Positions 3,404 to 6,919 of a stretch of DNA of 40,324 bases are shown piece after piece. The stretch covers positions 1 to 40,324 of the forward strand of contig PXCO01000053.1 in assembly GCA_003565295.1 (NCBI GenBank). Reading direction: 5' to 3'. Positions within the stretch are counted from its first letter, which is position 1. Every line of letters begins with the position of its first letter. Made by a program: the position numbers and the translations under genes. The notes beneath the pieces were generated by a model. The model was not told the DNA's origin. It did not search any database and saw nothing but the letters and a program-made list of their open reading frames with translations. The DNA comes from Cyclobacteriaceae bacterium (GTDB lineage: Bacteria > Bacteroidota > Bacteroidia > Cytophagales > Cyclobacteriaceae).

Positions 3404-4303
3404 ATGGAAACAACGAATAACCCCCAAATCATAGACGGAAAAAAAACATCGGCCACCATAAAAGAGGAGATCGCAGCCGAAGTGGTAAAGATCAAAGCAG
3501 CAGGAGGAAAAACCCCTCATTTGGCAGCCGTACTGGTGGGAGATGATGGGGCAAGCCAAACCTACGTAGGGGCGAAGGTAAAGGCCTGTGAGCAAATCGG
3601 TTTTACTTCCACCCTGGTGAAGCTTGATGCAGACATTTCTGAGGAGGGACTGCTTGAGGAGATTGAAAAATTGAACAGTAATGCTGATGTGGACGGAATG
3701 ATCGTGCAGTTGCCCTTACCTAAGCATATCAGTGTGCAAAAGGTGACCGAAAAAATCAGACCTGAGAAAGACGTGGACGGGTTTACACCTGCCAACGTGG
3801 GAAGGATGGCACTGAACTGGCCCACCTATGTTTCTGCCACCCCCAATGGCATAATGGAACTGATCAAGCGGTACAATATAGAAACCAGTGGGAAGCATTG
3901 TGTGGTAATTGGAAGGAGCCATATTGTGGGGTCGCCCATGAGTATTTTGATGGGAAGAAACGATAACCCCGGGAATTGTACGGTAACCTTGACCCATAGC
4001 AGGACTAAAAATCTGCCTGAAATCGCCAGAACCGCTGATATATTGATCGTGGCCATAGGGAAGGCCGAGTTTGTCACCAAAGACATGGTGAAACCCGGTG
4101 CGGTGGTCATCGATGTAGGCATACACAGGGTGCCCGATGCCAGCAAAAAAAGTGGCTTCCGCCTTATTGGTGACGTGAAATTTGACGAGGTGGCGCCTTT
4201 GGCCAGTGCCATTACCCCTGTACCCGGGGGAGTGGGGCCTATGACCATAGCCTCTTTGCTATACAACACCTTGATGGCTTCACAGCGGAAGATTTATTCT
4301 TAA
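3404..4303 (+). CDS. folD: Bifunctional methylenetetrahydrofolate dehydrogenase / methenyltetrahydrofolate cyclohydrolase
   Basis: FolD interconverts 5,10-methylene-, methenyl- and 10-formyl-tetrahydrofolate in the cytoplasm and supplies one-carbon units for purine and formyl-Met synthesis. The protein has 299 residues, typical for the family. The catalytic Tyr/Lys pair of the YxxxK motif is at Y54 and K58. The signatures IVQLPLPKH (substrate site), [10 protein letters not shown], the Rossmann [10 protein letters not shown] loop and the C-terminal [12 protein letters not shown] block are all present. It starts at ATG 3404, after the lepA terminator, and is followed after 60 bases by queE, which has its own leader RNA. 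Nothing unusual was seen. Confidence 0.97.
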
Positions 4304-4328
4304 AGGGATTTTGTTATTGATTTTGAAT

Positions 4329-4363
4329 AGCGGTTCAATCACCCGCTTTAACAAAAATTTGAT
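4329..4363 (+). promoter_or_regulatory. preQ1-I riboswitch controlling queE
   Basis: The 35 bases before the queE start fold like a class I preQ1 aptamer. P1 is AGCGG (4329-4333) with CCGCT (4343-4347). The loop starts UUC and ends A-C, with C4342 in the position of the ligand-pairing cytosine (C15 in the Thermoanaerobacter tengcongensis aptamer). The tail TTAACAAAA is the same as I recall for that RNA. P2 can form between CAA (4336-4338) and TTG (4359-4361). The start codon follows at 4364, so ligand binding should fold the A-rich region upstream of AUG into a pseudoknot and block initiation. A preQ1 sensor on a 7-deazaguanine synthesis gene makes biological sense. The fold is read by eye. 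Confidence 0.85.
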
Positions 4364-4990
4364 ATGCTAGAGAAAGAACAGGTAGCTGAAGGAACCATGC
4401 TGCCACTTATGGAAGCCTTTTATACCATTCAGGGAGAGGGCAGTTTCACCGGGCACTCCGCTTACTTTATCCGTTTGGGAGGATGTGATGTGGGCTGCGT
4501 ATGGTGTGATGTGAAGGATTCCTGGGAGGCAGGGAAATGGCCTTTGGTAGGTGTGGAAGAAATTGTGAATGAGGCCATGAAATATCCGGCCAGGCTTGCC
4601 GTTATCACAGGTGGTGAGCCTCTAATGTACGATTTAGGGCCATTGACCAGTATGCTAAAGGAAAGGGGTTTTCAGGTGAATTTGGAGACCTCCGGTGCGC
4701 ACCCGTTGTCGGGGGAGTTTGACTGGATATGTTTTTCCCCGAAAAAATTCAAATCCCCTGTAGAAGGGATTTACGAGAAGGCGAATGAATTGAAAGTGGT
4801 GGTTTTTCATTCATCAGATTTTGAATTTGCGGAAGTGCATGCCGCCAAAGTGAATGAGGGCTGCGTAAAACTTCTCCAACCCGAATGGTCAAAATCCTCG
4901 AGATTTATGGAAAAAATCATAACTTATGTGAAAAATCACCCGGAGTGGAGGATATCTCTCCAGACGCATAAGTTTATGGATATACCTTAG
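4364..4990 (+). CDS. queE: 7-carboxy-7-deazaguanine synthase
   Basis: QueE is a radical SAM enzyme that converts 6-carboxytetrahydropterin to 7-carboxy-7-deazaguanine, on the path to preQ1 and queuosine tRNA. The protein has 208 residues. The cluster-binding cysteines are C41, C45 and C48 (CxxxCxxC). GEGSFTG precedes them, and TGGEP, the SAM-binding GGE motif, lies near residue 87. The C-terminus (RISLQTHKFMDIP) carries the family's conserved LQxHK-type ending. It starts at ATG 4364 directly after the preQ1-I aptamer, and the next gene begins 3 bases after its stop. No other queuosine gene (queC, queD, queF) is in the window. Confidence 0.95.
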   Translation: MLEKEQVAEGTMLPLMEAFYTIQGEGSFTGHSAYFIRLGGCDVGCVWCDVKDSWEAGKWPLVGVEEIVNEAMKYPARLAVITGGEPLMYDLGPLTSMLKERGFQVNLETSGAHPLSGEFDWICFSPKKFKSPVEGIYEKANELKVVVFHSSDFEFAEVHAAKVNEGCVKLLQPEWSKSSRFMEKIITYVKNHPEWRISLQTHKFMDIP

Positions 4991-4993
4991 TGG

Positions 4994-6919
4994 ATGAAAA
5001 AGGCTTGTTTGATTTGTGGAATCCTCACACTGATCCAATTCGGTGGGCTTTATGCCCAGGAATATTCGGTAATAGACAGAAGAGCTATCAAGCATTTTGA
5101 GGAGGGGGAGCAGTTCCTGCTGCGCAGGCAGTTGGATGAGGCGATGTACAGTTTTCAGGCGGCCTATGATAGAAGCTCGGATTTTTTCGAGGCTTACCTC
5201 AGGCATGCCCAGGTGCTGCTTACTAAAGGCCTGCATGAACGTTCGTTGGAAATTGCAGAAAGGGGGGAGCGAAGGCTAAAGGCCGACAAGGAAAAGCAGT
5301 TTAAGGGACGGTTTGGCTGGCTGATGGTGCAAATATACCTGGGGATGGGTGAATTCGAGAAGGCCCTGGAAAAAATGGATGAAACCAACCCGCATTTGGA
5401 TGAATCTTTTTTGGCCTCAGAGAATTACCAAAAGAGTAAGGAAAGGCTTGACTTTATATCAGAACACCTTAAATCTCCCTTGTCCATCACCAAGGAACGG
5501 CTACCTGAACCTTTGAACCGGTTTAGGCTTCAGTATTTCCCCGTATTAACTGCCGATAGCAAAAAGATTCTTTTCACCAAGAGAGACGGGCTTCACCAAC
5601 ATGACAATGAGGATATATACGTATCTTATTATGACGGTGAAAGCTGGACTGCCCCGGAGTCCATTTCCAAAACCATAAACACCCGTTACAACGAAGGCAC
5701 ATGCACGATTTCAGCGGATGGCAATATCCTGATTTTCACCTCTTGCGATACCCCTGACTCCTTTGGCTCCTGTGATCTATACCTCACGCAAAGGATCAAC
5801 GGGATCTGGCAGAAACCTGCCAATATGGGGAAAAATGTTAATTCCCGGTATTGGGATTCCCAGCCCTCCCTTTCTGCAGACGGGTCTGTACTTTTTTTCT
5901 CCTCTAACCGCCGGGAAGGATTTGGGGGTAACGACATTTGGTTTACGGAAAGGCTATCCAATGGCACTTGGTCGGAGGCCAAAAACCTCGGAGAAAATGT
6001 GAATACCCCAAAGGATGAGGTCTCCCCCTTTATTTTCTTCAACAACGAGATGCTATTCTTTGCTTCCGATGGTCATTTGGGATTTGGGGGGAAGGACATT
6101 TTTGTATCCAGCTTTGACGGGCAGGAATTTGGCCCACCCCGGAATTTGGGCTACCCCATCAATGACCAAAATGACCAATTGGCGCTTTTTATCACAGCTC
6201 AAAAGGATTACGCATATTACACCCAGAATGCTTACATAGAGGGAAGGCCGGATAGCTCTTTTCTATATCGCTTCGATTTCCCCAAAACCATTGACCTCGG
6301 GGAGAAGATCATCGTAACGGAAGGCAGGGTACTGGATGCGACAAGCGGAAAGCCTGTGGATGCCCGGCTTTCCTTGGTGAATCTGGCCAATGATAGCACC
6401 ATGTATGAATTCAGGTCCGACGGAATGACCGGAGATTTTGTGATGCTCTATCCCGACGATCAGGGTCTTTCTGGTCTTTATGTGGAAAAGAAGGGGTTTA
6501 TTCCCCGAATTTATAACGTGGAGAGGGATAGTTTGAAAAACAGGAAAAACCTATCCATTGAGTTGGACCCTATAGAGAGCGGGAAGAATTTTGTGTTCGA
6601 AAATATATTCTTTGATTTCGATAAAGCGGATTTGAAAGACGAGTCCATCAGTTCTCTGAGCAGGCTCGCTAAGTTTTTACAGGAGCATCCCAATTTGCGC
6701 ATCATGATAGAGGGCCATACCGATAACGTGGGTGGGGCGGCCTACAATGAAAACCTAAGTATGAAAAGGGCCAATTCTGTGAAAGATTATTTGAGCAAAC
6801 TGGGCATTGCCGAGGCACGGATGGAGACCGTGGGAAGAGGGGACAAAAAGCCACTTATGGAAAATGATACCGAGGAGAACCGGGCACTGAACCGGAGGAT
6901 AGAGGTGATTATTTTGTAA
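4994..6919 (+). CDS. PorE-like envelope protein: TPR, beta-propeller, CRD, OmpA domain
   Basis: The protein has 641 residues and a signal peptide ending near residue 21 (GGLYAQ). Domains in order are: TPR-like helices (about 26-135); PD40/WD40-like propeller repeats (about 176-420) with recurring SADG and GGNDIW/GGKDIF blade motifs; a carboxypeptidase-regulatory-like domain (about 440-510); and a C-terminal OmpA peptidoglycan-binding domain (about 530-641) with FFDFDKADL, GHTDNVG and KRANSV. This order matches PorE (PG1058) of Porphyromonas gingivalis, a T9SS accessory protein that anchors the machine to peptidoglycan. Unlike PorE I see no lipobox. Paralogues with this architecture are common in Bacteroidota, so PorE itself is not certain. 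It probably shares a transcript with queE (3-base gap). Confidence 0.8.
   Translation: MKKACLICGILTLIQFGGLYAQEYSVIDRRAIKHFEEGEQFLLRRQLDEAMYSFQAAYDRSSDFFEAYLRHAQVLLTKGLHERSLEIAERGERRLKADKEKQFKGRFGWLMVQIYLGMGEFEKALEKMDETNPHLDESFLASENYQKSKERLDFISEHLKSPLSITKERLPEPLNRFRLQYFPVLTADSKKILFTKRDGLHQHDNEDIYVSYYDGESWTAPESISKTINTRYNEGTCTISADGNILIFTSCDTPDSFGSCDLYLTQRINGIWQKPANMGKNVNSRYWDSQPSLSADGSVLFFSSNRREGFGGNDIWFTERLSNGTWSEAKNLGENVNTPKDEVSPFIFFNNEMLFFASDGHLGFGGKDIFVSSFDGQEFGPPRNLGYPINDQNDQLALFITAQKDYAYYTQNAYIEGRPDSSFLYRFDFPKTIDLGEKIIVTEGRVLDATSGKPVDARLSLVNLANDSTMYEFRSDGMTGDFVMLYPDDQGLSGLYVEKKGFIPRIYNVERDSLKNRKNLSIELDPIESGKNFVFENIFFDFDKADLKDESISSLSRLAKFLQEHPNLRIMIEGHTDNVGGAAYNENLSMKRANSVKDYLSKLGIAEARMETVGRGDKKPLMENDTEENRALNRRIEVIIL

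Follow-up and report, generated by a model that had tools for sequence, protein, structure and literature searches.

The window (the whole stretch of DNA analyzed here, 40,324 nucleotides from a Cyclobacteriaceae bacterium) carries on its forward strand a queE gene that is preceded by folD. The best NCBIfam match of the queE product is the QueE model TIGR04322 (135 bits, below its cut-off of 200), and matches two to five are to further QueE models, again without reaching their cut-offs. Immediately upstream of queE, at 4329-4359, lies a 31-nt pseudoknot resembling the aptamer of the preQ1-I riboswitch class, from which 4 nt lead to the queE AUG; in order, positions 4329-4366 read AGCGG-UUCAAUCAC-CCGCU-UUAAC-AAAAA-UU-UGAU-AUG. 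The components of the locus are:

3404-4303, forward strand: folD, the upstream neighbor, with its stop codon 25 nt before P1
4329-4333, forward strand: P1 5' strand, AGCGG, pairing in full with 4343-4347
4334-4342, forward strand: 9-nt loop, UUCAAUCAC, with C4342 at the specificity-base position directly 5' of the P1 3' strand
4334, 4335, 4336, 4339, 4341 and 4342, forward strand: loop bases U4334, U4335, C4336, U4339, A4341 and C4342, equivalent by position to U6, U7, C8, U11, A13 and C14 in the E. coli type III crystal numbering, as given in PMC10622847
4337-4339, forward strand: P2 5' strand, A-A-U (positions 9-11), pairing with 4357-4359, in the place of the E. coli anti-SD
4343-4347, forward strand: P1 3' strand, CCGCU
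4348-4352, forward strand: linker UUAAC, variable, with A at position 22 in 57 of 62 aligned rows and C at position 24 likewise in 57 of 62
4348-4357, forward strand: tail, UUAACAAAAA
4353-4356, forward strand: A-run (positions 25-28), which would lie along the minor groove of P1 and touch the ligand
4357-4359, forward strand: P2 3' strand, A-U-U (positions 29-31), at the site of the A-G-G that forms part of the Shine-Dalgarno (SD) sequence in E. coli type III
4360-4363, forward strand: spacer UGAU, 4 nt, to the AUG
4364-4990, forward strand: queE, 7-carboxy-7-deazaguanine synthase, 208 residues

The next gene (4994-6919) starts 3 nt past the queE stop codon and has PorE/OmpA-like NCBIfam matches, below their cut-offs, which suggests an operon combining queE with a gene of unrelated function.

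A first-pass annotation of this DNA had described a 5-bp P1, a UUC...AC loop with a cytosine at the ligand-pairing position and a possible 3-bp P2, and had proposed a preQ1-I riboswitch abutting the queE start codon without an SD sequence. P1 and the loop read as it described them. The P2 helix is likewise present, with its register shifted by one base: the CAA/UUG pairing implied earlier would end at 4361, whereas the conserved helix is RAU:AUU and ends 4 nt before the AUG. By analogy with type III, A4354-A4357 (-10 to -7) would be the adenines touching P1, the ligand and the ceiling.

Model R3, built from 14 elements of other genera with the window and its congener left out, matched 4329-4363 with 52.8 bits (E 2.3e-12), the runner-up among its nine matches in the window reaching 12.3 bits; the match is beyond chance. 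Along with the two-sided changes found in both helices (see below), this score bears out the presence of a preQ1-I-like aptamer upstream of queE. The search with the Rfam preQ1-I model RF00522, which had been proposed as a possible refutation, scored the window element at 12.8 bits, its gathering score being 39, a value that was also missed by all 15 genuine leader loci submitted, which came from 14 genomes. Since the same model also returned no match up to E 10 on the yhhQ leader of E. coli, whose type is structurally proven, we rejected it as too insensitive a judge; the expected hit is indeed missing at the cut-off, but this does not validly refute the aptamer. In a draw of 395 genomes across the phylum, RF00522 exceeded its cut-off in one (locus L193, discussed below) and gave matches at E 1 or better in 166; at that threshold there was none in the window's own genome. 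The genes following three weak matches (L194-L196) were judged by eye not to be queE.

To establish how widely the element accompanies queE we examined the relatives of the window's genome. A QueE match was present in 93 of 98 genomes, the window's own included, seven of these matches being short or weak, and of the 86 leaders read, that of the window among them, 20 carried the element before queE in near-identical form. Two elements (L008 and L021) were missed by our sequence pattern and found by eye, and two further pattern hits were judged to be chance. Model R1, built from 19 of the 20 queE-leader elements, does not detect the E. coli yhhQ element; across the family it gave matches at E 0.1 or better in 153 of 390 genomes, distributed over 36 of 84 genera. 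In a set of 60 family matches, chosen so as to include weaker ones, QueE was encoded immediately downstream in 54. Six others (L183, L185 and L187-L190), all with E >= 0.008 and no QueE nearby, were taken as chance, and two matches (L184 and L186) score as weakly as such QueE-less ones, yet are genuine. The phylum draw yielded R1 matches in 13 of 395 genomes, six of them within the window's own family; the seven outside it (L126-L132, all but L131 read base by base) had no QueE nearby and were taken as chance. Similarly, model R2 matched 16 of 213 genomes drawn from the order, 13 of them in the same family, and the three from elsewhere in the order (L355-L357) were also taken as chance: nothing better than E 0.7 matched QueE there, and L355 sits inside a cyclophilin-type gene.

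We further searched a collection of named-species genomes (84,980 by its description) with a relaxed pattern in which only the two inner P1 pairs were fixed, and recovered 109 stretches, all of which were tested for a following queE; one of them lay at an edge. Matches with an unbroken 5-bp P1 stood directly upstream of queE in 53 of 54 cases, which is the association with a queuosine gene expected of the preQ1-I class; the remaining one (L310) had no QueE match within 1,537 nt of sequence. With four P1 pairs, 4 of 15 matches preceded queE and 11 did not; with three pairs none of nine did so, and with two pairs 1 of 30, namely L252, which has one extra C. Where P1 was broken and queE absent, the pattern matches look like chance occurrences, and by eye several of them lie inside coding sequence. 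Among 80 titled stretches 47 were linked to queE, in genera such as Cecembia, Belliella, Cyclobacterium, Echinicola and Algoriphagus. Lunatibacter and Cecembia belong to the Cyclobacteriaceae, Shiella to the Shiellaceae, and Splendidivirga and Agaribacillus to the Splendidivirgaceae, all within the Cytophagales, an order to which the other genera named (e.g. Belliella and Echinicola) also belong. The queE-linked element was found here only in Cytophagales.

Examination of the sequence conservation patterns was performed on two sets. The first is an alignment of 62 unique rows, collected with a pattern that required the four inner P1 pairs, U6, C14, C15, the A-run and a tail with AUU, GUU or UUG; that these letters are invariant, and that the 3' strand of P2 does not vary, is therefore partly a product of selection. 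Some rows were edited by hand: the extra C of one row (L008/L252) was dropped, L265 was added, and gaps were placed in L163 and L184. For covariation 59 of the 62 rows were used, three rows of genus g57 (loop UUUCAACAC, tail AAUUG) being dropped as their P2, UCAA:UUGA, is ambiguous in register; in the 62-row count they appear unpaired at 11-29 and 9-31. The second set comprises 26 unique elements placed by model and free of that filter, for which 42 of 54 loci were used and 12 of other length left out. In all 26 of these we found U6, G5, C15, A10, A25-28 and UU at 30-31, with C14 in 25, U7 in 19 and A13 in 16; the four inner pairs of P1 can be formed by 25 of them. The exception at C14 is L184, which has a 10-nt loop. 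Thus, the features that characterize the preQ1-I class, i.e. the specificity-base C, the G-C pair closing P1, U6 and an A-rich 3' tail, are seen in this unfiltered set.

The 59 distinct rows display two-sided changes in four of the nine pairs, against a shuffle mean of 1.1, and none of 500 shuffles reaches four; sliding the partner strand by 1-3 columns leaves 0-1 pairs with such a change. A set of 14 rows without the window's genus again had four pairs with two-sided changes, with 0 of 500 shuffles reaching this number. Hence the compensatory changes in relatives that the first-pass annotation had asked for are present in both P1 and P2. For further pair types the count does not exceed that of shuffles, 359 of 500 of which reach it, and the covariation score of 0.070 for the real structure is exceeded by the 0.080 of the slide by +3, which contains six pairs. 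Both helices of an H-type pseudoknot can form across the alignment (91.1% of cells paired, partly through selection). In P1 (98.0% paired, again partly through selection) two of the five pairs, e.g. pair 4-16 with its change from G-C to A-U, vary on both sides and the other three are invariant. In P2, two different genera (L184, and L175, which equals L265) have C-G in place of U-A at pair 11-29, one of the two cases sitting on a shifted alignment column; pair 9-31 is A-U or, in 11 rows, G-U, a one-sided change, and pair 10-30 does not vary. Of the 59 rows 11 have C-G at the outer pair 8-32, eight have G-C and 40 leave it unpaired; it is thus optional.

The strong conservation of the primary sequence of P1, with its three invariant pairs, is also what one would expect if the inverted repeat AGCGG-N9-CCGCU were the binding site of a regulatory protein, in DNA or in RNA. 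We consider such a site in place of a riboswitch highly improbable: the A-run and the P2 strand, which lie outside the inverted repeat, are conserved as well in the model-placed elements, P2 covaries, and the element often stands downstream of promoter-like sequences and 0-6 nt from the AUG.

The region around the start codon is consistent with a riboswitch that acts on translation. No SD-like tetramer occurs at -20 to -1, a stretch mostly within the element itself, in any of 90 unique leaders, and in these leaders the distance from the end of P2 to the first in-frame ATG is 0-6 nt with a mode of 3; the earlier claims of a missing SD and a close abutment on the start codon thus hold across the set. 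In the window, SD-like tetramers precede 2 of 24 ORFs, against 1.26 expected by shuffling. With P2 ending 0-6 nt from the AUG, a terminator would not fit between the aptamer and queE, which favors translational control. Of 109 leaders 65 have the sequence TAnnTTTG, a Bacteroidota promoter motif, no more than 45 nt upstream of P1, against a shuffle mean of 1.85 and none of the 109 at -200 to -155; given this proximity many leaders may hold little beyond the aptamer. In the window the motif is missing from the 80 nt that precede P1 and, since the folD stop codon lies 25 nt before P1, queE may there be co-transcribed with, or read through from, folD.

In predictions without ligand P1 alone forms in most leaders (P > 0.5 in 90 of 108), and the median unpaired probability over leaders is 0.79 for the tail and 0.59 for the start region. 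For the window in a shorter context the corresponding values are a P1 probability of 0.74, with the tail 0.63 and the start region 0.42 unpaired. P1 is absent from the pseudoknot-free fold of 97 nt of the window, the energy of which is no better than that of shuffles (z 0.14); on the same ground we rejected a conserved alternative structure in which the 5' strand of P1 would pair with the start region. PMC6847099 describes initiation in F. johnsoniae as tuned by structure near the start codon and by adenines at -3 and -6, and a pseudoknot 0-6 nt from the AUG therefore places structure where F. johnsoniae initiation is sensitive.

To better understand the affinities of the element we compared it with the known preQ1-I types. 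The type III yhhQ leader of E. coli K-12 reads UUGGG-UUCCCUCAC-CCCAA-UGGUUAAUCAAAAAGG-UACAAU-AUG and shares with our element a 9-nt loop UUCNNUNAC, the AC before the P1 3' strand, the G5-C15 pair and the CAAAAA tail, as well as the H-type pseudoknot and a position immediately upstream of a queuosine-precursor gene, which is queE here and the yhhQ transporter in E. coli. The two differ at loop positions 9-10 (RA here, CC there) and in the tail (UU here, GG there). In the E. coli crystal structure U11-A28, C10-G29 and C9-G30 are paired, A27 of the SD touches preQ1 and C14 is the specificity base, according to PMC10622847. The CC:GG pairs thereby bury the SD in E. coli, whereas the present element has RA:UU pairs and no SD. 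A type III pattern matched 6 of 229 genomes of one gammaproteobacterial class, of which L338, L340 and L341 precede Vut_1/YhhQ-family genes and L336, L337 and L339 were judged by eye to be chance. Besides the E. coli leader, four type III leaders (the three just named and one from the genome of L268) all have CC:GG, precede Vut_1/YhhQ-family genes and place the GG 6-10 nt from the AUG. The end of P2 is accordingly 6-10 nt from the AUG in the five type III leaders read, against 0-6 nt here.

UU on the 5' side of the loop together with AC at the specificity base is listed as a type III feature in PMC11625349. It is present in the window, with U7 in 54 and A13 in 53 of the 62 rows, neither being required by the pattern. 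The other type III feature, a pyrimidine-rich loop with AAGG (the SD) in P2, is absent, the loop being UUCRAUNAC and the tail AAUU; we therefore call the element type III-like and not type III. The loop best fits the short scaffold of type III (PMC10622847), the SD:anti-SD pairs being replaced, and either common descent or convergence may account for the likeness to E. coli.

Type II elements (B. subtilis and Tte) share the AC at the specificity base and an A-rich tail, that of Tte, UUAACAAAA, being the same as in the window. Their loops, of 10 nt in Tte and 12 nt in Bsu, are longer than the 9-nt loop seen here. The type II elements also diverge in their mode of action, with that of Bsu acting by transcription and that of Tte burying SD nucleotides (PMC11625349). 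The AC before the P1 3' strand (A13 in 53 of 62 rows) is the type II hallmark, and the same source assigns type II to phyla similar to those of type I, Bacteroidota included; the element could accordingly be an ordinary short-loop type II switch, already among the published Bacteroidota type II sequences and with nothing special about its P2. We regard this as quite unlikely, given that the 9-nt loop is that of E. coli type III and is shorter than those of Tte and Bsu, that U7, C8, U11, A13 and the CAAAAA tail all align with E. coli type III, and that RF00522 stays below threshold. Type I has UC before the P1 3' strand; the window has AC, and U13 occurs in 3 of 62 rows.

A type I element was encountered in a genome (G531) from another Bacteroidota family of the same class: locus L193, at 50.7 bits with RF00522, lies upstream of a Vut_1/YhhQ-family gene. 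It shares with the present element the class I fold and, by eye, the lack of an obvious SD before the AUG, and differs in its UC in place of AC, its longer loop and its score above the Rfam cut-off. The 2014 survey that defined type III reportedly also lists Bacteroidota type II sequences. A review (PMC11625349) records types I and II in Bacteroidota or a comparable set of phyla, and type III almost exclusively in Pseudomonadota; hence the preQ1-I class as such is not new to Bacteroidota, a point on which the first-pass annotation could not decide. Among the matches listed by a PMC search, judged on titles and the beginnings of abstracts, there was no preQ1 switch in Cyclobacteriaceae and no preQ1-I element with a replaced SD.

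Taking together the conserved and covarying anatomy, the position, the absence of an SD and the link to queE, we consider it probable that the element belongs to the preQ1-I class and works as a translational OFF switch on queE, an early step of 7-deazaguanine synthesis; here we infer the ligand and the direction of control from homology, and the translational mechanism is likewise deduced. In the proposed sequence of events P1 would form first, leaving the A-rich tail open so that 30S subunits could load without an SD. Accumulating preQ1 (possibly preQ0) would then pair with C4342, the A-run would dock into P1, and A-U-U at 4357-4359 would pair with A-A-U of the loop at 4337-4339. The closed H-type pseudoknot, 4 nt short of the AUG, would sterically block the approach to the start codon and the loading of 30S subunits. 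It had been suggested earlier that the ligand buries the A-rich region favored by Bacteroidota ribosomes; the A-run would indeed be buried, but so would the P2 strand (-7 to -5), and simple occlusion of the start codon explains the arrangement as well as the hiding of a favored A-rich motif would.

Translational riboswitches are generally described as hiding the SD. Bacteroidota mRNAs are without SD sequences, as described in PMC6847099, which raises the question of how riboswitches in these bacteria stop translation. The presence of UU in place of GG, with matching changes in the partner strand, fits bacteria that do not use an SD. We lean slightly towards the reading that in SD-less bacteria a type III scaffold exchanged GG:CC for UU:RA and moved several bases closer to the AUG, giving an SD-independent translational switch in which the ligand would recruit adenines upstream of the AUG, and which might sense preQ0. 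The element would then amount to a natural experiment of 31 nt, i.e. the E. coli scaffold with the SD letters swapped along with their partners, in which SD-independent switching is directly testable. It also adds a subtype missed by RF00522 and names queE as its target across a lineage.

With respect to the ligand, near-full-length QueE was found in 86 of 98 genomes and QueA in 97, and TGT is present in the window's genome; the latter two indicate a queuosine pathway. The QueF model (PF14489) gave no match in the window's genome and exceeded its cut-off in 6 of the 98 (12 at E 0.001 or better), which leaves the conversion of preQ0 to preQ1 in Cytophagales without a recognized enzyme, and preQ0 may be the ligand. 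This scarcity of QueF, despite the common QueE and QueA, would be in keeping with an aptamer that senses preQ0 or another 7-deazapurine and not preQ1, as would the report that Tte prefers preQ1 over preQ0 only 17-fold (PMC10622847). We hold such a specificity to be unlikely: QueA, which acts on preQ1-tRNA, is present, implying that preQ1 is presumably made by an unrecognized enzyme or taken up, and both the specificity-base C and the G-C pair closing P1 are kept. Two QueA-family matches occur in the window's genome (G000:C270:12299-13336, 355 residues, and G000:C33:17598-18782, 409 residues), as in most relatives.

Several lineages display variant forms of the element. In genus g57 (L171-L174, L176-L182 and L354) P1 is AGCAG/CUGCU (UGCAG/CUGCU in L354) and P2 is UCAA:UUGA or similar, shifted by one. 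In part of genus g113 (L155-L162, L164-L170 and similar loci) the loops UCGAAUCAC and UGGAAUCAC alter U7 and change C8 to G. The latter change is matched by a C at tail position 32; U7, which contacts the ligand in E. coli type III, is C or G in these loci, and this counts against the assignment. Finally, G or U occupies position 13 in 9 of the 62 unique rows (L141, L143-L148 and similar loci; L152, L186, L191 and L192); by homology the A at this position is a possible gatekeeper, and its change might tune affinity.
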